Positions 29,060 through 58,096 of a stretch of DNA of 64,000 bases are shown here, in pieces. Position 1 is the stretch's first letter, and each line of letters begins with the position of its first letter. Source of the stretch: Streptosporangium saharense (GTDB lineage: Bacteria; Actinomycetota; Actinomycetes; Streptosporangiales; Streptosporangiaceae); NCBI RefSeq assembly GCF_014203715.1, contig NZ_JACHJP010000002.1:496001-560000 (forward strand), in the 5' to 3' direction. The position numbers and the translations under genes were made by a program. The notes beneath the pieces were generated by a model that was not told the origin of the DNA, did no database searches, and saw only the letters and a program-made list of their open reading frames with translations.

Positions 29060-29061
29060 GG

Positions 29062-31465: not shown

Positions 31466-31485
31466 CTCGCTCTCCTTCTCGTGAA

Positions 31486-38191: not shown

Positions 38192-38360
38192 CAGAAATAC
38201 CTCGCTCATGGCGGAATCACTGGGCGCTTCGCTGCAAGCGTGCACGAGCGAAGATCCCATTGTCTTCTCCCATTGTGCTTTCAGCGGACCGGCGTTATCG
38301 TCCGCATGAGGCGAATTCGGCAATCCAGGAGAAGAAGCGGCGGGATTCACGCTGCTATGG

Positions 38361-38422: not shown

Positions 38423-38986
38423 ATGGCTTCTGAGGCGGCTTCGGCAGGTCGCTTTCCTGGAAGAATGACAATCGTCAACGGACCCCAGCACAGAACCTGG
38501 CTGAACGTCTTCCTCGTGATCGTCATCGCCCACTGGGCCGAGCACGTGGCGCAGGCCGTGCAGATCTACGTCCTCGGCTGGCCGACCCCGCAGGCGCGCG
38601 GTGTGCTCGGTCTGCCGTTCCCGTGGCTGGTGACCTCGGAGTGGATGCACTACGGCTACGCGTTGTTCATGCTCATCGGGCTCGTCATGCTCAGGAAGGG
38701 GTTCACGGGCCGCGCCCGCACCTGGTGGAACATCTCGCTCGGCATCCAGGTCTGGCACCACTTCGAGCACCTGCTGCTGCTCCTGCAGGCGCTGACCGGT
38801 AACAACCTGGCGGGCAGGCCGGTTCCCACGAGCGTCCTGCAGTTCTTCTTTCCCAGGGTCGAGCTGCACCTGTTCTACAACGCCGTCGTCTTCGCCCCCA
38901 TGGTGGTCGCGATGCTTCTGCACCGCCGTCCGAACGAATCGGAGCGGTCGGCCATGGCGTGCGGCTGCGCGACGGCACACGCCTGA
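38423..38986 (+). CDS. His/Glu-rich integral membrane protein, unknown function
   Basis: 187 residues with about four membrane helices (28-50, 75-92, 108-125, 148-166). Histidines and acidic residues cluster inside or at the ends of these helices: HWAEH (37-41), WMHYG (75-79), WHHFEH (111-116) and VELHLF (146-151). That pattern suggests a metal-binding membrane enzyme, but I recognise no family. The ATG at 38423 has a strong GGAGG; an ATG at 38393 is less likely. It is convergent with the AhpD-like gene and divergent from the SDR gene. Confidence 0.75.
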   Translation: MASEAASAGRFPGRMTIVNGPQHRTWLNVFLVIVIAHWAEHVAQAVQIYVLGWPTPQARGVLGLPFPWLVTSEWMHYGYALFMLIGLVMLRKGFTGRARTWWNISLGIQVWHHFEHLLLLLQALTGNNLAGRPVPTSVLQFFFPRVELHLFYNAVVFAPMVVAMLLHRRPNESERSAMACGCATAHA

Positions 38987-41831: not shown

Positions 41832-42397
41832 GCGGGGCTCCCCGTTGAGGTCGTCGCCGGGTGGAGGCGGGCCAGCTCGCGGCCGTAGGAGTAGACAGGG
41901 AAACGCCACAGGCCGTCGTCCTGCGGTGCGGAGAAACCCATCGCCGTCAGGCCGGGGTGGCCCGCGGCCAGGGCGTCGAGGGTGTGCATGTGGGCGGCGG
42001 TGTCGAAGGCCATGTTGCTGAACAGCGCGACGCTGACCCACACCTCCCGCTCGGGGTGGGCGGGGGCGGTCAGTATCCCGACCAGGGCGGTCCTGTACGG
42101 GAACGGCAGGGAGACGAACGGCGGCAGCGAGGCGGCCAGGTCGATCCCGTGCTGGTCGGCGTAGGCCCGTGCGTGCTCGTTGAGCAGCCGGGCAAGGTCA
42201 CCGAGCGCGGACGCCAGCCCGGCCGCGGGGGTTTCGAGCAGTTCGACGGCGCCCGCGGCGACCGCGCCCCCGCCCGACGCGGCGCCCGCGACCGCCTCGT
42301 CACCGGGTGAGCGCTTCTCACCGGGGACGATCGTGTCCGCGAAGGCCTCCAACGTCATAGTCCTGGCCTGTTCTTCGTCTGGGATACCCGGTTGCAC
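41828..42397 (-). CDS. DUF5987-like small protein, probable GMC partner
   Basis: 189 residues, rich in Ala and helical. It begins with LEAFADTIVPGEKRSPGDEAVAGA, the type of segment found in gluconate-2-dehydrogenase subunit 3/DUF5987-like proteins that accompany GMC oxidoreductases. The GTG at 42397 is preceded by AGGAGG. The coupling to the GMC gene suggests a two-subunit dehydrogenase; an E8-type role is recalled, not shown. Confidence 0.75.
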   Translation of the reverse strand: MQPGIPDEEQARTMTLEAFADTIVPGEKRSPGDEAVAGAASGGGAVAAGAVELLETPAAGLASALGDLARLLNEHARAYADQHGIDLAASLPPFVSLPFPYRTALVGILTAPAHPEREVWVSVALFSNMAFDTAAHMHTLDALAAGHPGLTAMGFSAPQDDGLWRFPVYSYGRELARLHPATTSTGSPA

Positions 42398-42922: not shown

Positions 42923-43696
42923 ATGATGGAGGAAGTTCTTGAGAAAGCTGTGAGACGGGTTATCGAGACCATGCGCGAGCACCTCGGTGACGAGCTCACC
43001 ATCGATGACATGGCCCGTACCGCCATGTTCAGCAAATTTCACTTCTCCCGGGTCTTCAGACAGGTGACCGGTATCTCCCCTGGGCGTTTCCTGTCGGCGT
43101 TGCGGCTGCAGGAGGCCAAACGGCTGCTCCTGTCGACCTCACTGAGCGTCGCCGACATCAGCATTCAGGTCGGCTACTCGAGCGTCGGCACCTTCAGCTC
43201 GCGTTTCAAGAGCTGCGTCGGCCTGGCACCGACCACCTACCGGCAGCACGGCGGGTTCGCCCCGCTGATCCTCACCAGCGGCAGGAACGACGGCGAGGAG
43301 ACGCGTCTGACAACCGTCCAGGGCAAGATCTGGGCACCGCCTACGGGCCAGTGCGGCCTCATCTTCGTCGGGCTCTTCCCCACGTGCATCCCCCAGGGAC
43401 CGCCGGTCCGCTGCACGGTGCTGCGCAGGCCCGGCCCCTACGCGCTTGAGAAGGTGCCCCAGGGCACCTGGCATCTGCTGGCCCACTCCGTCGCCCCGGG
43501 AAACGAGAAGATCATGAACAGCCTGGGCAGGGACCCGTCGCTCTACGTGGGGGGCTACGGGCCGATCACGGTACGGCGCGACGTCGTGGTCAAGCCCGCC
43601 GACGTGCACCTACGGCCGATGGGGACCCTCGACCCCCCGGTACTGCTCGCGCTGCTCGACGTGCGCCTGGTGGCGCTCAACTCGGTCGCGAGCTGA
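42923..43696 (+). CDS. AraC-family transcriptional regulator
   Basis: 257 residues. Unusually for the family the AraC helix-turn-helix pair is at the N terminus (about 8-108; LTIDDMARTAMFSKFHFSRVF and LSVADISIQVGYSSVGTFSSRFK), followed by a C-terminal domain of about 140 residues that may sense a ligand. Enediyne clusters commonly carry an AraC-type regulator, so it is a candidate pathway-specific controller. GGAGAGGA precedes the ATG; the gene has its own promoter and terminator. Confidence 0.9.
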   Translation: MMEEVLEKAVRRVIETMREHLGDELTIDDMARTAMFSKFHFSRVFRQVTGISPGRFLSALRLQEAKRLLLSTSLSVADISIQVGYSSVGTFSSRFKSCVGLAPTTYRQHGGFAPLILTSGRNDGEETRLTTVQGKIWAPPTGQCGLIFVGLFPTCIPQGPPVRCTVLRRPGPYALEKVPQGTWHLLAHSVAPGNEKIMNSLGRDPSLYVGGYGPITVRRDVVVKPADVHLRPMGTLDPPVLLALLDVRLVALNSVAS

Positions 43697-43771: not shown

Positions 43772-45175
43772 TCACCCCGCCGGGCGCACCGTCATCGGGA
43801 GCCCGCCGCGCATCCTGAGCGAGAGCATCGGCTCGGCGACCACCCGGTGGCCGGGAACCCCGGTCAGCCGCAGCTCCCTGGCCACCATGGCGACCACGAA
43901 GACCGCCTCCATCATGCCCAGGCTGTTGCCGACGCAGAAGCGCGGACCGGCGCCGAAGGGGATGTAGGCGTAGCGGGGCCGGGACGCGGTTCCCTCGGGG
44001 GCGAACCGCTCCGGGTCGAAGCGCTCGGGGTCCTTCCAGAACTCCGGGTGCCGGTGCAGCGTGTAGGGACAGATCAGCACATCCGACCCCCTGGGCACGT
44101 GGTAGAGGCCGACCTGGTCGGCCCCCTGCGCGCTGCGCGTCAGGATCCACACGGGCGGATAGAGCCGCATGGCCTCCTCGACGACCATCGTGGTGTACCG
44201 CAGCCGGTGCAGGTCCTCGTGGCGGGGCAGCCGGTCGCCGAGCACCTCGACCGCCTCGGCGTGCAGCCTGTCCCACACCTCGGGACTGCCGTCCACCAGA
44301 TGGAAGGTCCACCCCAGGGTGCTGGCCGTCGTCTCATGCCCGGCGAGCATCAGGGTGATCAGCTCGTCCCTCATGCGCCTGCCGCCGACCCTGGGATCGG
44401 CCTCCTCCCGGGTCGAGACGATCAGGCGGGACAGCACGTCGTCGCCCTCGACGGGGCCCCGCGCCGCGCGTTCGGCCACCAGCCGGTCGACGACCCGCTG
44501 CAACTGCTCACGCGCCCTGCGGAAGCGAAGCTGTTTGGGCAGCGGCAGCCACGTCGGCACCGCGCCGAGCGTGACCATCTCGAACATCGCCTGGTCCTGC
44601 ACGGCCTCGAAGGAGTGCGCGACCGAGCCGAACGCGCCGAGGTCGGCGTCCAGCAGGGTACGGCCGAGCACCCCCAGGGTCATCGCGGTCACCTCCCCGA
44701 GGACGTCGACGGGCCCGCCGCCCCGGTGTGCCCGCAGCCTGTCGACCAGCCCCGCCGCCTCCTCCGCGACGGCGTCGGCCTGCTGGGCGATTCGCCGGTT
44801 CTGGAACACCGGCTGGATCATCCTGCGCTGCTTGCGCCACAGCTCGCCCTCGCTGGTCAGCAGGCCGTCCCCGAGGGCGCGGCGCGCCTGGACCAGCCCG
44901 ATCCCCTTGTGGTAGTTGGCGCTGTTGTCGGCCAGCACGTGCTTGGCGTGGTCGGGGTGGTTGAAGAAGTAGAGCGTCTTCGGCCCGAGGGAGATGCGGA
45001 CCGCGTCGCCGTACAGCTCGGCCGCCGAGGTCATCAGCGCGAGCCGGTCGCGGACCAGTTTCAGGAACAGGCCCATCGCGGCCCTGCGCGGCGGACCCGG
45101 CGGCGCCATCCCGCCACGCCCCGGGGACGCCCTGCCCCCCGGTACGGCCGAGGCGCCTCGTCCGGTGGAACTCAT
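43772..45175 (-). CDS. Cytochrome P450 monooxygenase
   Basis: 467 residues with the oxygen-binding motif AGHETTAS, the ExxR motif EEAMR, the PERFDPERF segment and the heme-binding loop FGAGPRFCVG (Cys is the axial ligand). The overall style is closer to CYP4/CYP102-like than to typical Streptomyces macrolide P450s. It is the last gene of the core transcript, coupled to the flavin reductase by an ATGA overlap, and is a warhead-tailoring candidate (E7-like by position and family). The N-terminal 30 residues are low-complexity, so the true start could be further in. Confidence 0.92.
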   Translation of the reverse strand: MSSTGRGASAVPGGRASPGRGGMAPPGPPRRAAMGLFLKLVRDRLALMTSAAELYGDAVRISLGPKTLYFFNHPDHAKHVLADNSANYHKGIGLVQARRALGDGLLTSEGELWRKQRRMIQPVFQNRRIAQQADAVAEEAAGLVDRLRAHRGGGPVDVLGEVTAMTLGVLGRTLLDADLGAFGSVAHSFEAVQDQAMFEMVTLGAVPTWLPLPKQLRFRRAREQLQRVVDRLVAERAARGPVEGDDVLSRLIVSTREEADPRVGGRRMRDELITLMLAGHETTASTLGWTFHLVDGSPEVWDRLHAEAVEVLGDRLPRHEDLHRLRYTTMVVEEAMRLYPPVWILTRSAQGADQVGLYHVPRGSDVLICPYTLHRHPEFWKDPERFDPERFAPEGTASRPRYAYIPFGAGPRFCVGNSLGMMEAVFVVAMVARELRLTGVPGHRVVAEPMLSLRMRGGLPMTVRPAG

Positions 45176-45738
45176 GCTGATACCTCGCTTCGATCTGGGG
45201 TGATCCGGCGGAACCTGCCGTGGAAGAACAGCAGGCCGTCGCGGTCGTCCTGCTGTTCCATGGAGAGCACCCGCCCGACGAAGATCGAGTGGTCGCCCCC
45301 TTCGTAGGTGCGCCACAGCTCGCACTCGAAGCGCGCGAGCGTGCCCGCGAGCAGCGGAGAGCCGGTGAGCGGCCCGGGACGCCAGTCGACGGCGTCGAAC
45401 TGGGCGGTCCCGAGGGGCCGCCACCGGTTGGAGAAGTGCCTGGCCAGACTCTCCTGGCCGGCGGCCAGGACGGAGACCCCGAAGGACCCCTCCGCGGTGA
45501 GGCAGCCGTGCATGATCGCGCCACGGTCCACGCAGACCAGCACGAGCGGCGGGTCCAGCGAGACCGAGGTGAAGGAGTTCGCGGTCATGGCGTGCGGGCT
45601 GCCGCCGCCGACGGTCACCACGGTGACGCCGGTGGCGAACATCCCGAACGCCCCGCGCATCGCCCTGACGTCCGCCACGGCGTCCATCTCCGGTGTGGCG
45701 GGGTCCGCCTCGCGGGACGGCTCAGGATTGACGCTCAT
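45172..45738 (-). CDS. Flavin reductase (HpaC/SgcE6-like)
   Basis: 188 residues with the flavin-reductase fold signature: FATGVTVVTVGGG, AMTANSFTSVSLDPPLVLVCVDR and GDHSIFVGRV. It reduces FAD or FMN with NAD(P)H and passes it to a partner monooxygenase. The HpaB-type hydroxylase at 25135 is the natural partner; SgcE6 serves SgcC in C-1027. It starts 24 bp after the thioesterase gene and is coupled to the P450. Confidence 0.9.
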   Translation of the reverse strand: MSVNPEPSREADPATPEMDAVADVRAMRGAFGMFATGVTVVTVGGGSPHAMTANSFTSVSLDPPLVLVCVDRGAIMHGCLTAEGSFGVSVLAAGQESLARHFSNRWRPLGTAQFDAVDWRPGPLTGSPLLAGTLARFECELWRTYEGGDHSIFVGRVLSMEQQDDRDGLLFFHGRFRRITPDRSEVSA

Positions 45739-45762
45739 GCTGATCTCCCCGGTTCTGCGGTC

Positions 45763-46191
45763 CTAGGACACGTACGGTTCGAGCGCGCGGGTCAGTGGCT
45801 CGGGAACCCTGGCCGGGACCGTGCGGCTGTTGGGCCCGCGCATGCACGCGACCCGCTGCCTGCCGCGGGCGACCAGCGTCTCCCCCTCGCCGGGGTCGAG
45901 CCTGACGTAGTCGAAGCCGAACTCGAGCTGCGTCTGGGCGAGGTCGACCAGGCGCATCCTGATGGACAGCTCGTCGAAGGCCGTGAGCTCGGCGAAGAAC
46001 TCGCAGTCCACCCGCAGCGTGAACAGCTTCAGGTCCTCCTGCAGCTCGCCGAGCACGGCGGGGGCGTGGAGCTTGAGGAACATCTCCCGGCAGCGTCCCT
46101 GCCAGCGCAGGTAGTTGACGTAGTAGACGTTGCCGACGAGGTTGGTCTCCTCGAAGCCGACCGTGTGCAGATACTCGAAGTAGTTGCCCAT
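45763..46191 (-). CDS. Enediyne thioesterase E10
   Basis: 142 residues, the size of the family, with a hotdog fold pattern: YFEYLHTVGFEETNLVGNVYYVNYLRWQGRCREMFL, then VDCEFFAEL and LEFGFDYVRL. The ETNLVGNVYYVNYLRWQG region is highly characteristic of E10-type enediyne thioesterases, which release the polyene from PKSE. Its ATG overlaps the PKSE stop by one base (TGATG). Confidence 0.93.
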   Translation of the reverse strand: MGNYFEYLHTVGFEETNLVGNVYYVNYLRWQGRCREMFLKLHAPAVLGELQEDLKLFTLRVDCEFFAELTAFDELSIRMRLVDLAQTQLEFGFDYVRLDPGEGETLVARGRQRVACMRGPNSRTVPARVPEPLTRALEPYVS

Positions 46192-49100
46192 CACCGCCCC
46201 CGTCCCTCGGTGAGGATCGCGAAGGCGACCGGTTCCACGGTGTCCCGCAGCGTCGTCACCAGCGTCGCGACCCGCAGGCCGCCGGAGGCCAGCACCGCCC
46301 AGGCGTCCCGCCGCTCCGAAGTCCAGGTGAGCGGCGCGCCCGGCGGCAGCCCCGCCTTGCGCAGGCACTCGGCGGCGGCCCACACGCGGGTCGCCGCGGC
46401 GTCGAGGCTGCCGCCCAGCTCCATCGCGACCAGTTCGGCGAGGCCGAAGTGCGAGCCGAGCAGGCCCCGCCAGTCCTCGACCGTCCTCTCCCGCACGGTC
46501 TCGACGTCGCAGCCGACGGTGCCGGTGGCCGCGACGCACAGGGTCAGCCCGGCGCCGTGGGAGGCCGAGATCGTCCTGCCCCCGTCCACCTCGGGCCGCC
46601 CGTCGGGGCGGTGGCGGACCTCGACCGGATGCCCGAGGGCCCGTCCCACGGCCACCGTGGTCGCCGCCCTGCGCTCGGCCGTACCCCTGGCCTGTTCCTG
46701 CGGGTCCTGTTCCCGCGGGTGGGGCGGGTCGGGTTCGACGACGACGGCGGCCCCGGTGCCGGTCAGGTCCTCGACCGCGCGCTCCAGGTAGGGGCCGAGC
46801 AGCGGCGCCACCCACGGCCCCCGCCCGTCGCCTTTCCGTACGGCCCGCAGCCGCAGCCCGTCCCAGCGTTCGAGGATCCGGCCTGTCCCGTCCCGCACGG
46901 CGATGTCGTAGACGTAGGTGTCGCCGTCGCGCAGCCGTTCGGTCGCGCAGTAGCGCAGCTCGCCCGCCTCCACCAGCGCGGCGCCGCCGGGCTGGACGCG
47001 TTCGATCCCCGAGGGCAGCAGCGTCGCGTCCGGCACGCAGACCTGGTTGCCGTGCATCAGCGCGTCGCGTACGCCGGGGTCGCCGAGCAGCAGCTCACCG
47101 GAGAGGAACCCGGCGAACCAGTCGGTGTTCGCGTCCGCCACGACGTCGGCGTCCACGTGTCTGGCCGCAGCCCTGCGGTAGCGGCGCAGCCGCTGGAAAC
47201 GGCCGCCCTGGAAGAGGACCTCGCCGTACAGGTCGGCCGCGGGGTCGAGCGGCACCAGGGGCAGGCCGTCGGCGACCTGGTCCGGAGGACCGTCCTGCGC
47301 GACCTCCCCGGCGAAGCGCAGCCGCGCCCTGAAGTGGTCGGCGTCGAAGCCGGTCTCCGCGCTGCGCACGGCCACCTCGACGGTGTCGTCCCCGGTGACG
47401 GCGGCGGCGACCCTGATCATCGTCGTGCCGTCCGGCGGCACCACGATGGGCCGCAGGAACTCGGCCTGTTCGATCGTCGGCGGCCTGTCCGGGACCGTGC
47501 CGAGGGTCGCCACGGCCACCTGGGTCATCGCCTCCATGCCGAAGACGGCGGGGAAGAGCAGGTTGCCGTCGAGGTGGTGGTCGGCGAGGTAGAGGTCGGT
47601 GCCCGCGTTCAGCTCGACCTCGACGACCAGCTCGACGCCGTGGTAGCGGATCAGCGGCCTGCCGACGAAGCGGGACAGCGGGAGCGGGGGCAGGTCGTGG
47701 CGGACGGTGCCGACGCCCTCGGTGCGCCCGCTGACCACCACGACGGTGGGCGCGTCGGGGTCGGTGACCAGCCTGCGCATGATCCGTACCCCCTGGTCGG
47801 GGGTGATGGGGGTGACGCCGTCGCGGGACAGGGTCTCGACGACGTCGAGCCGCTCCCCCATGCCGACGCCGGACCAGACCGACCACTCCATGCACAGGGC
47901 ACGGCAGCCGGGGTGGTCGCGGGCGATCTCCTCGGTGAGGTCGGCCAGCCACTCGTTCGCGGTGGCGTAGTGTCCCTCCCCGCGCAGCCCGGACCTGCCG
48001 ATGATGCTGCCGAACGTCACCAGCAGGCGCAGCGTTCCGGGATCGACCGCGCCGAGCACCGCCCGCAGGCCGTCTACCTTGGGGGCGAGGGTACGGCGGA
48101 AGGCCTCCATGTCCAGGCTGGTGATCGCGCCGGGCTCGTTGCGTCCGGCGCCGTGCAGCACGGCGGTGACCGGCCCGGTCTCCCTGGTCGCCTCCGTGAC
48201 CGCCGCGCGCAGCGCCACGGCGTCGGTGACGTCGGCCCTGGCGTACTTGACGGTCACCCCGGTGTCGGACATCCGTCGCAGGTTGGCGGCCAGTTCCTCG
48301 TCGTGCTCCGGGTCGGAGCGTCCCACGACGACGAGGGCGGCGCCGCTGTCCGAGGCCAGGGCGAGGGCGCACTCGGCGGTGATGCCCTTGCCGCCTCCGG
48401 TCACCAGGAGCACGTCCTGGCCGCCGAGCGGCTGGACGACCTGGGCGGGCCGTACCGGCATGGCGCGCAGGGTCGGCACCCGGCGCGTGCCCCGCTCGTC
48501 GTAGTGGGCCTCGGCGTAGCGTGTGGTCGCCGCGACCTCGCCGACGACCCAGCCGACGGCCCGCTCGGACACCGGCACGTGCGCGATGGTCGTGCGCAGG
48601 TGGGGTGCCTCAAGGAAGAGCGTCCTGGCCAGTCCGGCGGCGCCCCTGCCGTGCTGTACCAGGACGAACCGGGTTCCCGGCTCGCCCGCGAGGGCGGCCT
48701 GGGCGCCCAGCAGGGCCTGTTCGAGGTCCCGCTCCGCGCATCCGGGCGGCAGGCAGACCAGGACGCCTGAGCCGACGCCCGCGCTCTCCAGCTCCCGGCG
48801 CAGCGACTCGGCGAAGGGGTGCTCCCCCGCCGTGTGCAGCGTCCAGCGCCCGTTGTCCTCCCGCACGCGCGTGACGGGCAGCGGGATCTCGTCGAAGTCG
48901 ACGGAGAACGGCCTGGCCCAGGCGGCGGCCCCGGCGACCGTGGCCGGGGACGTTCCCCCGTCCTGTCCGGTCTCGGCGAGGGTGCCCAGGGCGTCGGCCA
49001 GCTCGCGCACGGTCGCCGTGGCGAAGTTGGTCGGCGCCTGCGCCGAGGACAGGCCCATCCGCCTGGCGGCGTGGTTGACGATCTGCCCGACCGTGATGGA

Positions 49101-51989
49101 GCTCAGGTGCAGGTCGTCGAGCAGGTGGCTGTCTGCCCGCACCATGTCCATGGGCAGTTCGGCGCGTTCGGCGGCCAGCCGCCGCAGCATGTCGAGGGCC
49201 GTCTCCCCCTCGCTCCTCTCCTGCGGCTGCGGAGTCTCCGGCTGGCTCGCGGGCCGTACGGCGGGGCTCAGCAGTACCTCGGGGGCCCGCTCGCAGGGGC
49301 TCTCGAAGAACGACAGCGGCGCGCCGACCCGCAGCGGCCTGACCAGCCTGCCGTGGAAGAGCGCCTCGTGCGCGACCGGGGCCCCGGCGACGTAGGCGGC
49401 GGCGACCACCCGCAGCAGTCCGGCCGACGACTCGTCGTCGGTGTCCAGCGCGACCGTGGGCACGTCGGTCACCGCGGCGGCCAGCCCGCTGAGCACCCGC
49501 CCGGGGCCGACCTCGACGAACAGGTCGATGTCCTTGGCCGCCAGTTCGACGGCCTGGGCGAACAGCACGGGGTCGGTGACCTGCCTGCCCAGCAGCGCCG
49601 GGATGTCGGTGTCCGGGGCGAGGGCCTCCCCGGTGACCGTCGAGACGACGCGCAGCCCGACCCGGTCGAACTCCTCCTCGGCCAGCCGTTCGCCCAGTGC
49701 CCGCGCGGCGGGCGCGACGAGGGGCGAGTGGAAGGCGTGCGACACCCGCAGGGGGGTCCACGGCAGTCCCTCGGCGAGGGCCCTGCGCCCGGCCTCCTTC
49801 ACGGCGTCGAGCGGCCCGGCCACGACGGTCTGCCTGGGGCCGTTGTATCCGGCGATCACCACGGGCAGGTCCCTGATCAGGGCGGTCACCGCGTCCGGGG
49901 AGGCGGCGACGCCCGCCATGGTTCCCGAGGCGCTGTGCTCGGACATGGCCCTGCCCCTGGCCGCGGCGACCCGCAGCAGGGTCTCCTCGTCCATGGCGCC
50001 CGCCCAGTGCAGCGCCGACAGCTCGCCCAGGCTGTGGCCGACGGCGACACCGGCCTCGACGCCGAGGGCGGCCAGGGCGCGCAGTCCCGCGACGGAGCCG
50101 GTGACGATGCGCGGCTGGGCGACCTCGGTCGCGACCATGTCGCCGCCGGTCGGCAGGTCCGCCCTGAGGTAGACCTCCTCGACCTCGGTGAAGCGTCTGC
50201 GCAAGGCGCCTCCGCTGGTGCCGCGCCCCGAGCCCTGCCCGGGGAAGAGGTAGCCGATCCTGCCCGGCCCGTTCACGCGGCCGAGGAAGCCCCTGCCGTC
50301 GGCGGAGAACAGCGGGATCTCCTCCGCGTCGAGGGCGGCGAGCACGCGGCGCAGCCTGCGCTCGGCGTCCTCCGGCGAGGAGACGACGACCGCCGCCCGG
50401 TACGGCAGGCCGCGCAGCTCGCGCTGCAGGGTGGCGGCCAGGTCGCCGAGCTCGGCGTAGGACAGGGCGGGCACGAAGTCCGCCAGCCCGGCCAGGCGTT
50501 CGCGCAGCTCGGGGGCCGTGGCGCCGTCGAGCATCAGCAGTTCGGCGTCCTGGACGGAGGAGGCGAGCGCCTTGGTCCTGCCGTCGAGTCCGGCCCTTCT
50601 GCGCGGGCCCGGCTTCTCCAGCACCACGTGGGTGTTGATGCCGCCGAAGCCCATGGCGGTCACGCCCGCGCGCACCGGCGCCCCGCCGGGCCACGCCTCC
50701 GCCTTGCGCAGCACGCGCAGCCTGGCCGTCTCCTCCGTCAGCACCGGGTGCGGCTCGACGCAGCCCGTGGTCGGCGGCAGCACCTGGTGGTGCACCGCCA
50801 GCGTGGCCTTGATGAGCCCGGCGACCCCGGCCGCCGCCTTGGTGTGCCCGATCATCCCCTTGATGGAGCTGATCGCGGCCAGCGGCCCCCGCGCGTCGGA
50901 CAGGGCCTGGGACAGGGCCGTGAGTTCGGTCCTGTCGCCAACCTCGGTGCCGGTGCCGTGGCCCTCGAACATGGCGACGGTCTCGATGCCGAAGCCCGCC
51001 CGTTCGTAGGCGCGGCGCAGCGCCAGCCGGTATCCACTGACCTCGGGCCTGGTGATGCCGCCCCTGCCGTCGGAGGAGACGCCCCACCCGGCGACTGTCG
51101 CGTAGATCCGCCGCCCGGCCTCCACGGCGTCCTGTTCGCGCATCAGCACGACCATCCCGCAGCCCTCGCCCGGCCAGAAGCCGTTCGACCCCCGGTCGTA
51201 GAGCCGCATCTCCCCCCTGGCCAGGGCGCCGGTCTTGGCGAAGCCCACGATCTCGAAGGGGTCGATGGACAGGTCCACCCCGCCCGCGACGGCCACGTCG
51301 AGATCGCCGTCCGCCAGCGCCCTGGCCGCAGTCACCACCGACAGCAGCGAGGAGGAGCAGGCGCCGTCCACGGTGTAACCGCCGCCCTTGAGGTCGAAGT
51401 GGTTGCAGATGCGCCCGGCGATCGTGTTGGAGAGCCCACCGGCGAGGGTGTCCTCGTCGGGGACCGGGAAGGGGCTCTTGTAGGCGGCCTCCAGGTCGTC
51501 GAGGAAGCCGGTCAGTTGCTCGTCGTCCCAGTCGCGTTCCTTGAGCGCGGCCGCGACGGTGCGCCGGACGTACGGCCAGCGCAGCCGCATGAGGTTAGCC
51601 CTGGCGAACTCCCCGGTGAGGGTGTTGCCGACGATGACGCCGGTGCGCTCCCTCGCCAGTCCGTCCGCGCCGGGGAAGCCCGCGTCGGCCAGGGCCAGGG
51701 CGGCCGTGTCGAGCGCCAGCCAGTGGGTGAGGTCGGTCGAGCGGTAGGTGCTTCCGGCGATCTTGTAGCCGATCCGGTCGAAGGCGTAGCCCTCGATGAC
51801 GGCCGCGTTGCGCGCGTAGAAGCGGTCGGGGGTCGCCGGGTCGGCGTCCCAGTAGTCCTCAAGCCGCATGCGCACGTCGGGCAACCTGCGGAAGGCCCGC
51901 CGTCCCGCCAGGACGTTCTCCCACAGCTCTCGCGGCGACGCGGCGTCGGGGTAGCGGCACGCCATGCCGACGATCGCGATCCTGCTCAT
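46191..51989 (-). CDS. Iterative enediyne polyketide synthase PKSE
   Basis: 1932 residues, the standard size for the single-module enediyne PKS. KS (about 1-460): Cys211 in DGACSSS, His344 in EGHGTGT, His382 in GHTKAA. AT (about 575-890): Ser653 in GHSLGE. ACP (about 930-1005): phosphopantetheine Ser964 in LHLSSI. KR (about 1180-1440): VTGGGKGIT and Tyr1341. DH (about 1450-1715): His1471 in HHLDGNLLFP. C-terminal PPTase (about 1725-1932): GCDVE at 1827 and WAAAECLRK, so it activates its own ACP. It builds the linear polyene precursor of the warhead. The ATG overlaps the E5 stop. Confidence 0.97.
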   Translation of the reverse strand: MSRIAIVGMACRYPDAASPRELWENVLAGRRAFRRLPDVRMRLEDYWDADPATPDRFYARNAAVIEGYAFDRIGYKIAGSTYRSTDLTHWLALDTAALALADAGFPGADGLARERTGVIVGNTLTGEFARANLMRLRWPYVRRTVAAALKERDWDDEQLTGFLDDLEAAYKSPFPVPDEDTLAGGLSNTIAGRICNHFDLKGGGYTVDGACSSSLLSVVTAARALADGDLDVAVAGGVDLSIDPFEIVGFAKTGALARGEMRLYDRGSNGFWPGEGCGMVVLMREQDAVEAGRRIYATVAGWGVSSDGRGGITRPEVSGYRLALRRAYERAGFGIETVAMFEGHGTGTEVGDRTELTALSQALSDARGPLAAISSIKGMIGHTKAAAGVAGLIKATLAVHHQVLPPTTGCVEPHPVLTEETARLRVLRKAEAWPGGAPVRAGVTAMGFGGINTHVVLEKPGPRRRAGLDGRTKALASSVQDAELLMLDGATAPELRERLAGLADFVPALSYAELGDLAATLQRELRGLPYRAAVVVSSPEDAERRLRRVLAALDAEEIPLFSADGRGFLGRVNGPGRIGYLFPGQGSGRGTSGGALRRRFTEVEEVYLRADLPTGGDMVATEVAQPRIVTGSVAGLRALAALGVEAGVAVGHSLGELSALHWAGAMDEETLLRVAAARGRAMSEHSASGTMAGVAASPDAVTALIRDLPVVIAGYNGPRQTVVAGPLDAVKEAGRRALAEGLPWTPLRVSHAFHSPLVAPAARALGERLAEEEFDRVGLRVVSTVTGEALAPDTDIPALLGRQVTDPVLFAQAVELAAKDIDLFVEVGPGRVLSGLAAAVTDVPTVALDTDDESSAGLLRVVAAAYVAGAPVAHEALFHGRLVRPLRVGAPLSFFESPCERAPEVLLSPAVRPASQPETPQPQERSEGETALDMLRRLAAERAELPMDMVRADSHLLDDLHLSSITVGQIVNHAARRMGLSSAQAPTNFATATVRELADALGTLAETGQDGGTSPATVAGAAAWARPFSVDFDEIPLPVTRVREDNGRWTLHTAGEHPFAESLRRELESAGVGSGVLVCLPPGCAERDLEQALLGAQAALAGEPGTRFVLVQHGRGAAGLARTLFLEAPHLRTTIAHVPVSERAVGWVVGEVAATTRYAEAHYDERGTRRVPTLRAMPVRPAQVVQPLGGQDVLLVTGGGKGITAECALALASDSGAALVVVGRSDPEHDEELAANLRRMSDTGVTVKYARADVTDAVALRAAVTEATRETGPVTAVLHGAGRNEPGAITSLDMEAFRRTLAPKVDGLRAVLGAVDPGTLRLLVTFGSIIGRSGLRGEGHYATANEWLADLTEEIARDHPGCRALCMEWSVWSGVGMGERLDVVETLSRDGVTPITPDQGVRIMRRLVTDPDAPTVVVVSGRTEGVGTVRHDLPPLPLSRFVGRPLIRYHGVELVVEVELNAGTDLYLADHHLDGNLLFPAVFGMEAMTQVAVATLGTVPDRPPTIEQAEFLRPIVVPPDGTTMIRVAAAVTGDDTVEVAVRSAETGFDADHFRARLRFAGEVAQDGPPDQVADGLPLVPLDPAADLYGEVLFQGGRFQRLRRYRRAAARHVDADVVADANTDWFAGFLSGELLLGDPGVRDALMHGNQVCVPDATLLPSGIERVQPGGAALVEAGELRYCATERLRDGDTYVYDIAVRDGTGRILERWDGLRLRAVRKGDGRGPWVAPLLGPYLERAVEDLTGTGAAVVVEPDPPHPREQDPQEQARGTAERRAATTVAVGRALGHPVEVRHRPDGRPEVDGGRTISASHGAGLTLCVAATGTVGCDVETVRERTVEDWRGLLGSHFGLAELVAMELGGSLDAAATRVWAAAECLRKAGLPPGAPLTWTSERRDAWAVLASGGLRVATLVTTLRDTVEPVAFAILTEGRGR

Positions 51990-52960
51990 ACCGAGGCGAC
52001 CTCCTTGCCGGTACTCGCCAGGCCGTCCTGGGCGCGGGCGGTGAGGCGCGCCATGGTCTCGCGCTGCTGGCGCCCCTTGTCCACGAAGTGCAGCGACCAC
52101 AGGAAGACACCGCGGACGAGGCAGACGGTCGCGGTGGCGAAGAAGATGCCGTAGGGGATGTGCACGGCCGTGTAGAAGCCGTACGTCAGGGCGACGCCGC
52201 CACCGAAGACCATCTGCGCCGCGGGTTTCGACGGGCTCGTCCCCGGGTCGGTGACCATGTAGTTGGTGAAGAGGATGAAGGCGACGCCGGTCATCGTGCC
52301 CAGCGCCCCGGAGATCGAGGTGCCGAAGAACAGGCCACGCAGGACGGACTGCAGGGCGAAGCCGCCCACCCAGGCGGCGATCAGCGGCATCCGCCCGGTG
52401 AGCTTGCCGTTGATCATGCTGCCGCCGAGGATGATGATCCCGGGGATGAGCCAGTCGATCCAGGTGTCCACGTTCTCGGTGAAGTGGTACGGCGGGGCGA
52501 TGCTGGCCCAGGGCAGGATCAGCAGGATGACGGCGATGCCGAAGTTCGACGGGTTCATGAAGTGCCGCAGCTTGCCGCGCACCGGAGCCCGCAGCACCCA
52601 CTTGGTGCCGACCGCGACGACCACCCCGAACATCATCACCAGGACCTGGTCGTTGACGTAGATCAGCATGTTCATGGCCAGGCTGGTGATGTGCGCGGGG
52701 TAGAGGAACTCCACCAGGCCGCGCATGCCGTTGCCCGTGTAGCGCGGCGCGCGTCCCTCGACCCTGGCCGCGACGAACTCCAGCGCGATCTCCACGGCGT
52801 AGCCGGTCGCCAGGGCGATGAAGGGCCACAGCCACGGCTGCTCGAACCCCAGGAGGATGTACCCGACGGTGTTGAAGACCGTGATGGATATCGCGAAGTT
52901 GCGCAGTGCGATGGTGACCTTGGGATCGTGGCGTGGGGGATTCTGTGTCTTGTCAGACAT
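51986..52960 (-). CDS. Enediyne biosynthesis membrane protein E5 (UnbU-like)
   Basis: 324 residues with about eight membrane helices and a conserved loop NPSNFGIAVILLILPW, similar to RnfD/NqrB-like membrane folds. It matches the UnbU/E5 family that always accompanies PKSE. Its exact role is not established in the literature I know. It sits between E4 (5-bp gap) and PKSE (ATGA overlap). Confidence 0.92.
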   Translation of the reverse strand: MSDKTQNPPRHDPKVTIALRNFAISITVFNTVGYILLGFEQPWLWPFIALATGYAVEIALEFVAARVEGRAPRYTGNGMRGLVEFLYPAHITSLAMNMLIYVNDQVLVMMFGVVVAVGTKWVLRAPVRGKLRHFMNPSNFGIAVILLILPWASIAPPYHFTENVDTWIDWLIPGIIILGGSMINGKLTGRMPLIAAWVGGFALQSVLRGLFFGTSISGALGTMTGVAFILFTNYMVTDPGTSPSKPAAQMVFGGGVALTYGFYTAVHIPYGIFFATATVCLVRGVFLWSLHFVDKGRQQRETMARLTARAQDGLASTGKEVASV

Positions 52961-52965
52961 CTCGG

Positions 52966-54933
52966 TCACTTCTCCTTGGCCTGGCTGCCGAGTTCGAGGC
53001 AGTGCCTGCCCGGCGTCAGCTGAAGGTCCTGTTCGTGTACCTGTCCGGCCCGGTCGCGCCAGCGCAGGTTGACCCGCACGGGACCGGTGACGTTCCTGCC
53101 GAGCCCGAGGTGCACCTCGCTGCTGCGCTTGCCGGAGTGTCCGCTGCCGCCGTCCACCCTGCCGAGGATCGTGCGCCCGTCCGGTGTCGTCACCGTGACC
53201 TGAGCGCCGGTCGCCGGTGAGCCGGGGGCGGGCAGCGCGCCGGGGACCGGCGTGTCCGCGTGGGTCAGCTGCAGTTCGAGGAAGGCCCCGGGTGAGGGGC
53301 TCTGGTTGTGGTAGAAAACGGGCTCTCCCCACTGCCTGGCGACCGCGAAGTCGAGCCTGCCGTCGCCGTCGGCGTCGCCGGTGGCCACGCCCCGCGTCGG
53401 CACCGGGATGGCCAGCCCAAGTTCCTTGGCCACGTCGACGTAGGTGCCGTCGGGGCACTTGACGAAGAAGTGCAGCGTCTGGGTCCCCGCGACGTCGTCG
53501 CCCGCGCGCACGTTCGGCCACCAGTAGGGGTTCTGCAGTAGCTGGTCGTTGGCCGTCGCCAGCTCCTGAAGCTGCGGCCAGCGGTCGACCTCGCCCTTCA
53601 CGAACCCGGTGGCCTGGACGATGCTGAGGTCGCCGCCGTTGTCGAAGTCGTCGATCTTGACGTCCCAGCCCCAGCCCGACCAGGCGGTGCGCGCCTGGGC
53701 GCTGCGGTCGGTCCACGGCGCCTCGCCCTCGCGGAGCCTCTCGCGCAGGGCGGCCTTGTCGCCGGAGGAGGACACGAACTGGAAGTTGCTCTCCTCGATG
53801 CCGAAGGAGGTGGTGATGTTGCTGACGAACATGTCGTAGACGCCGTCACCGTTGAGGTCGCCGAAGTCCAGGCCCATGCCCTTGAAGGAGTCGTGGCCGA
53901 TCGTCTTCGACTTGGGGATCAGCGGCGTGCGCACGCCCTCGACGAGCGAGAGCCTGATGTGGCCGGGCGTCGAGCGGTTGTAGAACATCCGGTCGGGGCC
54001 GAAGTCGTTGGCGAGATACAGCTCGGGAAGCTGGTCTCCGTCGAGGTCGGTCGCCGCGGCGGCCAGCTCCCAGCCCTTGGAGGCCGTCTCGGGCAGCACG
54101 TCGTCGAGGCACTGGTAGGTGACCGAGGGGCTGGCTCCCTTGACCGAGCCGGTCCAGCGGAAGAAGTAGTCGTCCCCGCCGTTGTGCGCGTTGGACATCG
54201 AGTGGTTCATGTGCACGACGCCGGTGCTCTTGGGGTCGAGAACCGCGCTGTGCGGGAAGTAGTTGCCGATGAAGATGTCGTCGTGGCCGTCGCCGTCGAA
54301 GTCCGCGACGGTCGCGGCGTTGGTGTTCCACTGCGGGCCGGTGTAGCGGCCGTTGGTGGAGTTGGAGCCGGGCACCAGCTCGACCGGCCGGTAGGCGTCG
54401 GGGCCGAGTTTGGCCGCCCCCGGCTTGGCGAGGTAGAGGATCGGCGTGCGGCCCCACATGTAGACGAGCAGGTCGAGACGGCCGTCCTCGTTGAAGTCGC
54501 CGGGGACGCAGCCCATGGGGGCGATGTTGTCGTTCATGGGGAGCGTGCCGGGGTTCAGCGCGAAGGGCGCGTACCTTCCGGGCTTGCCGCCGGGGACGGG
54601 GGTGACCACGGTCTGGTCGATGCGCGTGTCGACCAGGCACAGGTCGTTGGCCAGGCCGTCGCCGTCGAGGTCGTTCATCGCGATGGCCGCCCCGACCGAG
54701 GAGATCCACGCGTCGATGTGCGTGTAGTCGGGGTGGACCCTGCGGATCTCCTGCTGGCGGAAGCCGCCCGGCAGGGCGACGGACATCGGCGCGAAGGAGT
54801 ACCTGCTCGCCATACCGGCCGTGTCTGCGGCCGAGGGCGTGGGGATGCGGGCCACCATGAATGCGCTCACGATCAGCACGAGCGCGAGGACTCCGGGGAG
54901 CTGCCTGCGCAGCCAGCCCGCTGTCGCGGTCAC
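52966..54933 (-). CDS. Enediyne biosynthesis protein E4 (UnbV-like, FG-GAP/ASPIC)
   Basis: 655 residues with an N-terminal signal or anchor segment (about 8-28) and many FG-GAP-like Asp-rich repeats (NDLDGDGLAND, GDFNEDGRLD, ADFDGDGHDD, TDLDGDQLPE, GDLNGDGVYD, GDADGDGRLD) that should form a calcium-binding beta propeller. The C-terminal ASPIC/UnbV domain (about 575-650) contains HLGLGRN. The family is a constant member of enediyne cassettes, but its biochemical function is unknown. GTG start with GGGAGG upstream. Confidence 0.93.
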   Translation of the reverse strand: MTATAGWLRRQLPGVLALVLIVSAFMVARIPTPSAADTAGMASRYSFAPMSVALPGGFRQQEIRRVHPDYTHIDAWISSVGAAIAMNDLDGDGLANDLCLVDTRIDQTVVTPVPGGKPGRYAPFALNPGTLPMNDNIAPMGCVPGDFNEDGRLDLLVYMWGRTPILYLAKPGAAKLGPDAYRPVELVPGSNSTNGRYTGPQWNTNAATVADFDGDGHDDIFIGNYFPHSAVLDPKSTGVVHMNHSMSNAHNGGDDYFFRWTGSVKGASPSVTYQCLDDVLPETASKGWELAAAATDLDGDQLPELYLANDFGPDRMFYNRSTPGHIRLSLVEGVRTPLIPKSKTIGHDSFKGMGLDFGDLNGDGVYDMFVSNITTSFGIEESNFQFVSSSGDKAALRERLREGEAPWTDRSAQARTAWSGWGWDVKIDDFDNGGDLSIVQATGFVKGEVDRWPQLQELATANDQLLQNPYWWPNVRAGDDVAGTQTLHFFVKCPDGTYVDVAKELGLAIPVPTRGVATGDADGDGRLDFAVARQWGEPVFYHNQSPSPGAFLELQLTHADTPVPGALPAPGSPATGAQVTVTTPDGRTILGRVDGGSGHSGKRSSEVHLGLGRNVTGPVRVNLRWRDRAGQVHEQDLQLTPGRHCLELGSQAKEK

Positions 54934-54936
54934 GTC

Positions 54937-55911
54937 CTAACACCTCCCAAGGGATGCGAACTCGTCGGCGATGCGCCGCCGCCACACCTCGTAGGCGGGC
55001 ATCTCGCCCTGGACGGGCCCGTCGGGACGGGCCTTCTCACTGATCCGCGCCGCCTGTTCCGGGGTCATGTCGCAGAAGACCCGGGTGGCCAGGAGCGTGT
55101 GCGGCACCACGAGACCGGCACGCTGCCTGGCCTCGGCCGCGAACGCGCTGCCCTGGGCGATCCACGGGCGGTGCTCGCCCGCGCGCTCCCAGAAGGTCAG
55201 CAGTTCCTCCTCCTCGGCACCGCCGGCGTAGCTGGCGGCCAGCCCGGCACCGGCGTACAGGTCGGCCCTGCGCTCGGGGGAGAACCCGTCGATCATCGTG
55301 GCGACGAGCCCCGCGTCGGCCCCGCCGACGAACCACATGGCCCGCCCGATGCCCTGGTCGATGGCGTGCCCGGCGTACCAGCCGAAGCGGTCGGCCTTCC
55401 AGGGGAAGGCGGGGTCGCGGTGGTGGGCGTGGACGTAGCGGCCGGTGTGGAAGTAGGCCTGGTGGAAGCCGTACCCGTCGAGGACGAGCCAGCGCAGCAG
55501 CGGGTCGTAGGCCGAGACGTCCGGCCACAGGAAGCGCGGCAGCCTGGCCATGGCCCAGCCGATCCCGACGTAGACCATGTAGAGGTGGTCGTCGCCGCGC
55601 CCGGCGAGGAAGTCACCGATCCTCCTGCCCCGGGTGAACGGCAGGGCGTCCAGTACGGCGAAGCCCATGCCCGCGCCCTCGTAGGCGAAGCCGCGGAAGC
55701 GGGTGGGGATCGTCTCCAGCCGCTGTTCCGCCTCGCGGGCCGTACGTGACTCGGCCGCGAAGGCGTAGCCGGTGAGAAACGATTCACCAATCGTTTCCAG
55801 CAATTCTCTCGCCTCTGGACTTTTCTCATTGAAACCGCGCGTCCCGAGTTTCGTGGCCGAGACGCTCGGGGTCAGAATTCGGCGCCTCAGCGCCCTCAAC
55901 GCATTGGCCAC
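54937..55911 (-). CDS. Enediyne biosynthesis protein E3 (DUF1702)
   Basis: About 324 residues of the DUF1702 family, with RRRILTPSVSATKLGTRGF, a conserved FAYEGAGMGFAVLDALP segment, YVGIGWAMARLP and DGYGFHQAYFHTGRY. DUF1702 proteins are found in enediyne cassettes; their function is unknown. The start is uncertain: GTG at 55911 has GAGG at a good distance, while GTG at 55923 and TTG at 55971 are alternatives. An unusual perfect palindrome lies inside the gene at 55776-55797. It is the first of the tightly packed core genes. Confidence 0.92.
   Translation of the reverse strand: MANALRALRRRILTPSVSATKLGTRGFNEKSPEARELLETIGESFLTGYAFAAESRTAREAEQRLETIPTRFRGFAYEGAGMGFAVLDALPFTRGRRIGDFLAGRGDDHLYMVYVGIGWAMARLPRFLWPDVSAYDPLLRWLVLDGYGFHQAYFHTGRYVHAHHRDPAFPWKADRFGWYAGHAIDQGIGRAMWFVGGADAGLVATMIDGFSPERRADLYAGAGLAASYAGGAEEEELLTFWERAGEHRPWIAQGSAFAAEARQRAGLVVPHTLLATRVFCDMTPEQAARISEKARPDGPVQGEMPAYEVWRRRIADEFASLGRC
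55776..55797. promoter_or_regulatory. Perfect 9-4-9 palindrome inside E3
   Basis: GAAACGATT-CACC-AATCGTTTC lies in an AT-rich stretch (about 55775-55840) inside the otherwise GC-rich coding region of E3. It could be a regulator binding site just downstream of the operon promoter or an mRNA hairpin. No function is known. Confidence 0.45.
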
Positions 55912-56132
55912 TTGTCGCCTCACGCCCCTTATTTCCGGATGGATTCGACTTCTAGGGCTATCTTCCGACAAATCTACACAGGCGCCTTGACCGACTGTCT
56001 ACTTCAAACGTGCTCACGGAAACACAAAGGAAACCTTCCAGTAATCGGGCGCATGATTGTGAAACCCCGGTTCCCCGCGTCACCAATTCACAGAAAGGCC
56101 GCAACGGTTGAGCGGAAATGCGGCGTCCGCGA

Positions 56133-57125
56133 TCAGCCCGGCAGACGGCCCGTCTGCGGGGCGAAGTGGGCGCGCACCTTCCCGCGCCACAGCTCGTAGG
56201 CGGGCAGCCCGTCGGCGCCCCGCTCCACGGCCGAGTCGTCGGCGAGCGCCACCGCGGCCTCGGCCGTCAGGTCCGCCAGTGCCCAGGCTGCCGTCTCGGT
56301 GTGCGGCGGCACGAAACCCGCGTGGTGGCGCGCCTTGGTCGCGAAGACGACGCCCTGGGCCAGCTCGGCCCCGTGCTCGGCGGCCCCCCTGCGCAGCGCG
56401 GCCAGGTCCTCCGGCTCGGCCCCGCCCGCGAACGCCGCGGCCAGCCCGACCCCGCTCCACAGGTCCGCCTGACGGTGCCCGGCGAAGCGCCCGACCGCGG
56501 CCGTGACGCCGTCGGGACGGCCCCCGTGGATGAACCACAGCGCCCGCCCGACCCCCTGGTCGGACGCCCGCAGGAAGTAGTCCGGCGCCCCCTCCCACGG
56601 GTAGGGCGTGGGAGTGCGCTGCTCGTCCACCCAGCGCGCGGTGTCGAAGTAGGCGCGGTCGAAGCCGTACCCGTCCACGGCCAGCCAGCTCATCGTCGGG
56701 TGGTACGGCAGGCCCGTCAGGTCGGGCATCGCCTTACCCCACAGGACCCTCGGCAGCCGCGCGAGCGCGAACCCGATGCCGATGTAGGTCAGGAAGAGGT
56801 GCGGCCTGCCGGGACCGAGCAGCAGGTCACGGGTGCGGTGGCCACGGCCGCCGCCCATCGCGTCCAGGACGGTGAAGGCCATCGTCGCGCCCTCGTAGGC
56901 GAAGCCGCGCAGCTCCTGCTCGACCATCGCGAGCCTGCGCTCGACCTCCCACTGGTCCCGCGCGTTGATCCCCCACTCGAACCCGCAGACCACCGCCTGC
57001 GGAATCGCCTCAAGGCGCCGGGTGGCCTCCGAGGGGGTGACCGGGAAGCCGCGCCCCGCGAAGGTCACCTCGGCCAGGGAGGGCGCGAGCACCAGGCTGC
57101 GCAGCGATCCGAAGACGGTGGGCAT
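56133..57125 (-). CDS. Second DUF1702 protein (E2-like by position)
   Basis: 330 residues with clear similarity to the neighbouring E3: FAYEGATMAFTVLDAM, YIGIGFALARLPRVLWG, DGYGFDRAYFDTARWV and SGVGLAAAFAGGA correspond segment by segment. It is upstream of E3 on the same strand with a 222-bp gap. In the cassette order I recall, E2 precedes E3, so this may be the E2 equivalent. The ATG at 57125 has GGGAGG; an ATG at 57155 is less likely. Confidence 0.88.
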   Translation of the reverse strand: MPTVFGSLRSLVLAPSLAEVTFAGRGFPVTPSEATRRLEAIPQAVVCGFEWGINARDQWEVERRLAMVEQELRGFAYEGATMAFTVLDAMGGGRGHRTRDLLLGPGRPHLFLTYIGIGFALARLPRVLWGKAMPDLTGLPYHPTMSWLAVDGYGFDRAYFDTARWVDEQRTPTPYPWEGAPDYFLRASDQGVGRALWFIHGGRPDGVTAAVGRFAGHRQADLWSGVGLAAAFAGGAEPEDLAALRRGAAEHGAELAQGVVFATKARHHAGFVPPHTETAAWALADLTAEAAVALADDSAVERGADGLPAYELWRGKVRAHFAPQTGRLPG

Positions 57126-57292: not shown

Positions 57293-58096
57293 CTAGCGTC
57301 CCGTGGTCGCGAACTGTCCGGGTGTACGGCCCTGCCCCGCGGGCCCCCGGTAGGCCTGGGCGATGTCCAGCCACCGGTCCGCCTCGGCCCCGGAGGCGGT
57401 CAGCGCCAGGTCGTCCCGGTGCCTGCGCCTGACCACGAGCAGGCAGAAGTCGTGGGCCGGGCCGGTGATCCGCTGCGTGGCGTCCTTCGGCCCGAAGGCC
57501 CACAGCTCGCCCGAGGGCGCGGTCAGCTCGAAGCGGAACTCCTCGGCGGGCGGCGTCAGCCCCCGCGCCTGGTAGCCGAAGTCCCTGGTCAGGGTGGCGA
57601 ACCACGCCAGGTGCCCGATCCTGTCCGTCGGCTCCCGCCGTACACCTAGGGCGTCCGCGATGTCCTGGCCGTGGCCGAACAGCTCCATGTATCCGGCGCA
57701 GCCGAGCACGGCGGGCGGCAGCGGCCTGACCAGCCACGGCACGGTCTGGTCCTCGGGAACCGCGGCGAGCGCCTTGAGCGAGGACTCACGCCCGGCCCGC
57801 CAGCGGGCCAGCAGCGTCTCCGGCGGGTCGTTCAGATACTCCGCGAGGGCGGCGTTCACCGCCCCGTCGAAGTCCCGGCTCGCCCGCGCGGCCATCGCCC
57901 CGAACGTCTCGGGGTCGGAGGCCGCCAGCTCCGCCAGGCGGAAGATGAAGGTGAGGTGCGCGATCTGGTGCCTGATCGTCCATCCGGGCGCGGGGGTGGG
58001 CAGCGCCCACCCGTCGGCGCCGAGGCCCTCGACCAGGCGGTCGAGCTCCTCGCCCTCCGCGGTCAGATCGGAGATCACGTCCTGCAGCTGGGTCAC
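57293..58096 (-). CDS. TIGR03084-like metal-binding (DinB/MDMPI-fold) protein
   Basis: 267 residues. The N-terminal region has WTIRHQIAHLTF and the middle ELFGHGQDIADALG, typical of DinB/maleylpyruvate-isomerase N-terminal folds in which three histidines bind a metal. Actinobacterial members are often thiol-dependent enzymes using mycothiol, but this subgroup has no defined substrate. A terminator hairpin separates it from the core genes, so cluster membership is uncertain. Confidence 0.82.
   Translation of the reverse strand: MTQLQDVISDLTAEGEELDRLVEGLGADGWALPTPAPGWTIRHQIAHLTFIFRLAELAASDPETFGAMAARASRDFDGAVNAALAEYLNDPPETLLARWRAGRESSLKALAAVPEDQTVPWLVRPLPPAVLGCAGYMELFGHGQDIADALGVRREPTDRIGHLAWFATLTRDFGYQARGLTPPAEEFRFELTAPSGELWAFGPKDATQRITGPAHDFCLLVVRRRHRDDLALTASGAEADRWLDIAQAYRGPAGQGRTPGQFATTGR

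Follow-up and report, generated by a model that had tools for sequence, protein, structure and literature searches.

The window, i.e. the whole stretch of 64,000 nucleotides analysed here, corresponds to positions 496001-560000 of contig C2 (1,557,508 bases) of an 8.5-Mb Streptosporangium genome. Between ~25.1 and ~58.1 kb it carries a gene cluster that, taken as a whole, is best explained as a nine-membered enediyne biosynthetic cluster, a reading of the sequence that we consider quite probable. While the core genes are those usual for this class, a companion module of two divergent genes, g24 and g25, was unexpected. The core cassette (43.8-57.1 kb), with every gene on the minus strand, and the gene next to it are given below, where identities refer to Streptomyces sp. 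CB02366, published as a C-1027 producer (PMC5181780).

43772-45076, minus strand: g33, P450 (E7-type), Pfam match, 69% to the CB02366 gene
45172-45687, minus strand: g34, flavin reductase (E6-type), Pfam Flavin_Reduct, PDB 5cho at 3.2e-64, 58% to the CB02366 gene
45763-46191, minus strand: g35, E10 thioesterase, Pfam 4HBT_2
46191-51989, minus strand: g36, PKSE, 1932 amino acids, KS-AT-ACP-KR-DH-PPTase
51986-52969, minus strand: g37, E5, without Pfam match, 68% to the CB02366 gene
52966-54933, minus strand: g38, E4, Pfam FG-GAP and UnbV_ASPIC, 59% to the CB02366 gene
54937-55803, minus strand: g39, DUF1702 protein in the E3 position (first called as 54937-55668)
56133-57125, minus strand: g40, second DUF1702 protein, in the E2 position, Pfam 6.4e-138, 64% to the CB02366 gene
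57293-58096, minus strand: g41, mycothiol-dependent isomerase-type protein (E11-type), TIGR03084 at 331 bits (cut-off 248), 67% to the CB02366 gene

A first-pass annotation of this DNA had described E3, E4, E5, PKSE and E10 in this order, followed by a flavin reductase and a P450. All of these genes were recovered, so that the E3/E4/E5/E/E10 cassette taken as the membership test for an enediyne cluster is present; the description had to be amended in that there are two DUF1702 genes and not one. The junctions are as tight as had been reported, with overlaps of 1 bp (PKSE/E10) and 4 bp each (E5/PKSE and E4/E5) and a gap of 3 bp (E3/E4). The second DUF1702 gene lies ~330 bp beyond g39 and thus outside the tight gene run. 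The start of g39 is probably TTG 55803, yielding a protein of 288 amino acids, as indicated by tblastn of the CB02366 protein and the list of start codons.

The six PKSE domains were likewise found with intact residues, KS, AT, KR and DH as Pfam matches and ACP and PPTase by motif alone. The motifs are DGACSSS (208), EGHGTGT (342) and GHTKAAAG (381) in KS, GHSLGE (651) in AT, DLHLSS (959) in ACP, TGGGKGIT (1197) and YATANEW (1341) in KR, LADHHLDG (1468) in DH, and the PPTase-like VGCDVE (1825) and ECLRKAG (~1874). Whole-protein identity was 83% to the PKSE of Streptosporangium carneum and 66-67% to those of C-1027-type loci. In the PKSE tree that the first-pass annotation had suggested (86 rows, quick method, without an outgroup of polyunsaturated fatty acid (PUFA) synthases), the window PKSE pairs with that of S. 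carneum (SH-aLRT 100) and groups with PKSEs of enediyne loci, among them the published C-1027 producer. A PUFA synthase, raised there as an alternative, was rejected on a score of 481 bits with the PfaA model, below its cut-off of 1010. A phmmer search placed E10 closest to solved enediyne-type thioesterases (3e-71 to PDB 4i4j, 'ACP-polyene thioesterase', and 1e-64 to CALE7), and the enediyne assignment made from these sequences is supported. Separately, the PPTase-like motifs seem altered in the PKSE C-termini of S. pseudovulgare and S. sandarakinum (GCDVT, no ECLRKAG).

The comparison with the C-1027 type, also suggested at first pass, revealed orthologues in CB02366 for 15 window genes (g17, g18 and g29-g41) at 52-78% identity, which, CB02366 being a C-1027 producer, points to a nine-membered enediyne locus. 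Common to both are PKSE, E2-E5, E10, the E6-, E7-, E8-, E9- and E11-type genes, the SgcC- and SgcJ-type genes, the AraC regulator and g29. Another gene, g28, is shared with S. globisporus JCM 4378, a like contig of the C-1027 type. In the part of PMC5181780 that deals with this distinction, nine- and ten-membered loci are separated by E2 versus R3 genes; here, g40 and g39 are 64% and 56-58% identical to the two CB02366 DUF1702 genes, which places an E2 gene at the locus (R3 was not searched as such).

Unlike the C-1027-type cluster, the window carries g19-g27 instead of the 34 genes, among 53 called on the CB02366 contig, for which no counterpart was matched here at E<=1e-5; another four were matched only weakly. 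The unmatched genes presumably include those for the sugar, benzoxazolinate and beta-tyrosine. A search for the NCS-family apoprotein (PF00960) gave no match in the own genome and was positive in CB02366 and S. globisporus; over all 50 genomes searched, 17 gave a match. Considering the 34 unmatched genes, the locus is not a C-1027 cluster, and with the apoprotein absent and the PKSE at 66-67%, this identity was rejected. We infer, less firmly than the class assignment, that the product differs from C-1027, the comparison with named characterised clusters covering the C-1027 type only. A beta-tyrosine route was considered and set aside, the only gene of the aromatic ammonia-lyase/aminomutase family found in the genome (C3:684485) being outside the cluster and scoring nearly equally with histidine ammonia-lyase (352 bits) and tyrosine aminomutase (333 bits).

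The earlier statement that no single known cluster matches was right as to near-complete synteny with the C-1027 type and incomplete in that an uncharacterised syntenic sister cluster, the nearest kin found, occurs in S. carneum VKM Ac-2007. There, g17-g43 are kept in order, and the cassette genes are 80-90% identical in identical order. Synteny continues past g43 at 69-95% identity, which implies that both clusters occupy the same chromosomal place. On the other side, g17 (93% identity) is the limit of synteny, and for g1-g16 no counterpart was found in 80 kb of S. carneum, save one short weak match. Nei-Gojobori dN/dS values, determined between window and S. carneum for 26 genes, ranged from 0.09 (g32) to 0.80 (g22, 71 codons) and were 0.29 for PKSE, 0.59 for g18, 0.52 for g24 and 0.10 for g25. 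For eight cassette genes the range was 0.23-0.32 and, together with the conserved order at 80-90% identity, this argues that the cassette is not a chance assembly.

The tailoring set is smaller here than in S. carneum, where additional genes code for an epoxide hydrolase and a condensation enzyme (65% and 50%, respectively, to CB02366 genes), a pair of acyl-CoA dehydrogenases (70% for one of them), a P450 and a prephenate dehydrogenase-like fragment. None of these left a trace in the window in tblastn at E<=1e-4. Elsewhere on contig C2, an epoxide hydrolase 57% identical to that of S. carneum is encoded at 95758-96855 and pieces of a prephenate dehydrogenase lie at ~1.08 Mb; no acyl-CoA dehydrogenase was matched on the contig at E<=1e-20, and matches to the condensation enzyme and the P450 were of 31-33% only. 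Other enediyne loci contain relatives of the epoxide hydrolase, the condensation enzyme, the P450 and one acyl-CoA dehydrogenase, suggesting that these genes were lost from the present locus; relatives of the second dehydrogenase are only 28-29% identical. It was also seen that the epoxide hydrolase on C2 (53% to the CB02366 gene) adjoins, within C2:95758-99264, a protein that shares 47% identity with gene 1 of CB02366; judging by its size, the latter is probably of the UvrA-like self-resistance type.

The companion module and its palindromes are arranged as follows.

33475-34599, minus strand: g24, carotenoid-oxygenase-type protein, 374 amino acids, start ATG 34599 (from the S. carneum alignment and the codon list)
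34632-34668, between g24 and g25: paired 15-bp palindromes CATAACAGTGTTGTG and CATATCGGCGTTATG, putative g25 operator
34683-35339, plus strand: g25, TetR-type regulator, 218 amino acids, start ATG 34683, TetR_C_33 and TetR-type N-terminal matches
35410-35424, flanked by the 3' ends of g25 and g26: third, perfect palindrome CATAACGGAGTTATG

As in carotenoid cleavage oxygenases, g24 matches the RPE65 family (PF03055; 3.1e-43), and all top 50 listed Foldseek matches of its predicted, low-confidence model (mean pLDDT 50.2) were carotenoid or stilbene oxygenases, with a TM of ~0.4. At this confidence, the seven-bladed beta-propeller of carotenoid cleavage oxygenases is no more than a candidate fold for g24. 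Unlike these enzymes, g24 has lost the iron ligands. An alignment of g24 with 27 relatives and 8 canonical paralogues revealed R, A, R and R in the four ligand columns of g24; the four histidines were present in 8/8 canonical paralogues and in none of the 28 rows of g24 and its relatives, three of which are gapped at one column. No g24 relative has histidine in the first ligand column, and partial retention was observed for S. carneum and locus L159 (second and third columns) as well as for L151 and L157 (two columns). A new motif, W-H-T...P-G...H, was evident from the invariance of W102, H103, T104, P109, G110 and H116 in 26/26 full-length rows (numbering of a 362-residue g24 call; two Acrocarpospora rows with an internal deletion left out), with A114 in 25 and E115 in 23 of them. 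The canonical rows have this W and T in 0/8, H116 in 1/8 and H103 in 5/8 cases. Full-length g24 relatives are also shorter, with 362-428 amino acids (one 338) compared to 435-494. The loss of iron ligands, the new conserved motif and a dN/dS below 1 together favour an altered function over mere decay.

Gene g25, 94% identical in S. carneum, is divergent from g24, and a TetR gene 71-94% identical to g25 is adjacent and divergent to g24 in 21 of 22 loci, being ~4 kb away in L159. In the 1,557,508 bases of C2, the palindrome CATAACNNNGTTATG was found at up to two mismatches at four sites only, namely the pair, the perfect site at 35410 and a site at 22323. At up to three mismatches, the window has 8 matches versus 2.5 expected, a number reached in 0/100 shuffles. 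Sites with at most one mismatch stand beside g24 in 7/8 neighbourhoods (not in Actinocrispum) and in 11/14 further loci (not in L176, L183 and L188), and none of the 21 palindrome matches in these 14 loci is more than 132 bp away from g24. Among the 80 reference loci, the palindrome occurs only in L088, a g24/g25 locus, and in L113; on the C-1027-type contigs, no site was found at two mismatches. No promoter is expected at the third palindrome.

Enediyne genes are frequent in the family: of the 297 family genomes, 128 gave an E10 match at E<=0.001 and 87 a strong one (E<=1e-50), and within the genus, PKSE was found at E<=1e-200 in 10/16 genomes, the own one included. The core cassette therefore adds another member to an already known class. 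The parts of PMC4599437 concerned with PksE genes report these in Herbidospora and no Streptosporangium cluster. At E<=1e-45, g24 was detected in 24/297 family genomes, or 23 after removal of G122, whose match is a canonical paralogue with all four histidines (L169). All 23 are among the 87 genomes with strong E10 (hypergeometric 5e-14, kinship ignored). The distance between g24 and E10 is at most 100 kb in seven of them and above 1 Mb on the same contig in four, and in twelve the two are on different contigs. In a separate set of 49 PKSE genomes, seven have a g24-type gene, which carries an internal deletion in two of them. A negative association of g24 with the apoprotein was looked for and was not significant, PF00960 being matched in 1/8 genomes with a g24-type gene versus 12/35 without.

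The remaining genes of the cluster are the following.

25135-26670, minus strand: g17, SgcC-type FADH2-dependent phenol hydroxylase (HpaB family), Pfam HpaB_N/HpaB, 78% to the CB02366 gene
27384-27731, plus strand: g18, SgcJ/SnoaL-type protein, TIGR02246 'SgcJ/EcaC family' at 129.5 bits (cut-off 34), 69% to the CB02366 gene
27830-31154, minus strand: g19-g21, 2-oxoacid dehydrogenase, Pfam matches (E2 component 27830-29059, E1 beta 29062-30039, E1 alpha 30036-31154)
31250-33192, minus strand: g22, MbtH, and g23, adenylation-carrier didomain (31486-33192, start may be upstream), Pfam matches
35496-37076 and 37124-38209, minus strand: g26, acyl-CoA carboxylase carboxyltransferase-type, and g27, SDR epimerase-type, Pfam matches
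38465-38986, plus strand: g28, conserved protein of nine-membered loci, without Pfam match, 70% to the S. globisporus JCM 4378 gene
39089-40120, minus strand: g29, conserved protein with a weak AhpD-like N-terminus, 52% to the CB02366 gene
40176-41831 and 41828-42358, minus strand: g30, GMC-type oxidoreductase (E9-type), and g31, DUF5987 (E8-type), Pfam matches, 77% and 64% to the CB02366 genes
42971-43696, plus strand: g32, AraC-type regulator, Pfam match, 53% to the CB02366 gene

The best PDB match of g17 was 4oo2 (E 2.8e-282), and SgcC-type hydroxylases were found in 17/22 PKSE genomes searched at E<=1e-60. Gene recurrence was determined in 94 sequences, comprising 12 neighbourhoods, 2 C-1027-type contigs and 80 loci with 10-kb flanks; the latter are the best 80 of the 460, among 496 pattern hits in GTDB species genomes, that encode a PKSE relative. 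In this set, S. carneum alone gave matches to g19-g21 at E<=1e-30, and no further genome was seen to carry g19-g22. The E1 alpha passes TIGR03181, a pyruvate dehydrogenase model. In HMMER alignments with both LgrA A1 and A2, g23 has Ser where Asp235 of the substrate code aligns; Asp235 being the code position that binds the alpha-amino group, this suggests a substrate without alpha-amino group. The carboxyltransferase/SDR pair (35496-38209) recurs beside PKSE at several other loci and perhaps serves malonyl-CoA supply. PDB and TIGR01926 matches of g29 were weak and below cut-off, and the Pfam matches of the 25-58 kb region include no glycosyltransferase.

In enediyne biosynthesis, PKSE makes a conjugated polyene, and carotenoid oxygenases act on conjugated polyenes. 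By analogy with the established pathway, PKSE with E10 would build and release the polyene, which E2-E5 and the redox genes would convert into the nine-membered core. With less certainty, the carrier didomain g23 may load an acid without alpha-amino group, the SgcC-type hydroxylase and the flavin reductase may oxidise a carrier-bound phenol, and an acyl-CoA for a side group may come from the 2-oxoacid dehydrogenase g19-g21. Most conjectural is the part of g24 and g25, which could form a module sensing the product or an intermediate: g25 might bind the paired palindromes and repress g24, and g24, its iron site lost, might bind rather than cleave the polyene or enediyne and so protect the cell. 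From its sequence context, the module appears to behave like a ligand-controlled accessory to enediyne production. We tentatively propose, at somewhat less than even chances, that g24 is a former carotenoid oxygenase rebuilt to bind, inside the cell, the enediyne or the polyene from which it is made, with induction via its own TetR and paired CATAACNNNGTTATG operators. Such a protein would provide self-protection in producers lacking the apoprotein and, though unlinked, would mark enediyne producers at the genome level.

Several observations weigh against this overall reading of the cluster and its module. At the cut-off used, 64 of the 87 genomes with strong E10 have no g24 match, and the relative L152 retains histidine in three of four ligand columns. 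The dN/dS of g24 (0.52) indicates faster evolution than that of most neighbours, which, together with the internal deletion of the two Acrocarpospora copies, could mean decay. Finally, the S. carneum condensation enzyme, one acyl-CoA dehydrogenase and the P450 are without orthologue both at the locus and on the 1.56-Mb contig (the other 25 contigs not having been searched), which leaves the attachment of a side group without explanation. The last point connects to the view of a relic, a cluster reduced and in part decayed that has ceased to make its ancestral product; its core genes would have been retained only recently or would make a simpler core. The missing tailoring genes (epoxide hydrolase, condensation enzyme, two acyl-CoA dehydrogenases and P450), four of them with relatives in other enediyne loci, suit this view; however, all cassette genes are intact with conserved motifs and low dN/dS, and an epoxide hydrolase is encoded elsewhere on C2, so that we regard a relic as unlikely. 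Production of C-1027 or another characterised enediyne, for which the common core speaks, would be very improbable given the unmatched CB02366 genes, the genome without PF00960 and the divergent PKSE.

For g24 itself, a catalytic role competes with binding: the invariant W-H-T...H residues could form a new active site without iron, at which the polyene or core is modified. The six invariant residues, which take the place of the canonical pattern, and the activity of carotenoid oxygenases on conjugated polyenes such as that made by PKSE are in its favour, but the patchy presence of g24, often far from PKSE, is more in keeping with protection or an auxiliary function than with a step in making the core, and we hold an enzymatic role to be doubtful. 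The association of g24/g25 with enediyne genes might also reflect shared ancestry without functional link, considering that the genomes are related, with 10/24 listed matches from one genus, and that the hypergeometric test is blind to this. Against it, g24 occurs within the own genus in 6/10 E10-positive versus 0/6 E10-negative genomes (Fisher p 0.034) and adjoins PKSE in Actinocrispum, Lentzea and Actinomadura, besides the seven of 23 genomes where it is within 100 kb of E10; mere ancestry is thus improbable, to about the same degree as the relic.

The cluster enlarges a class of which few structures are known by a nine-membered enediyne locus whose side-group genes (2-oxoacid dehydrogenase, MbtH and carrier didomain) form an unusual set. 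No link between enediynes and a carotenoid-oxygenase-type protein was found among the open PMC papers listed, and the main text of PMC5181780 has no occurrence of carotenoid, dioxygenase or retinal. The self-resistance types described in the relevant parts of PMC6804068 are apoprotein, transporters, UvrA-like protein, CalC-type self-sacrifice and TnmS-type sequestration; a carotenoid-oxygenase-type protein is not among them, and sequestration by a dedicated binding protein is the same principle as proposed for g24. If g24/g25 indeed sense and bind enediynes, this would be a type of self-protection beyond those described in these parts, self-resistance in nine-membered producers lacking the apoprotein would become testable, and the module would be a marker by which producers can be found even when it lies far from the polyketide synthase genes.

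Two further proteins of the window were noted outside the cluster. A large nSTAND1-WD40 protein (58227-62066), the S. carneum copy of which is 76% identical, adjoins it, and a single protein of 1114 amino acids (15454-18798) matches M4 thermolysin, M28 peptidase and P-domain, an unusual fusion.

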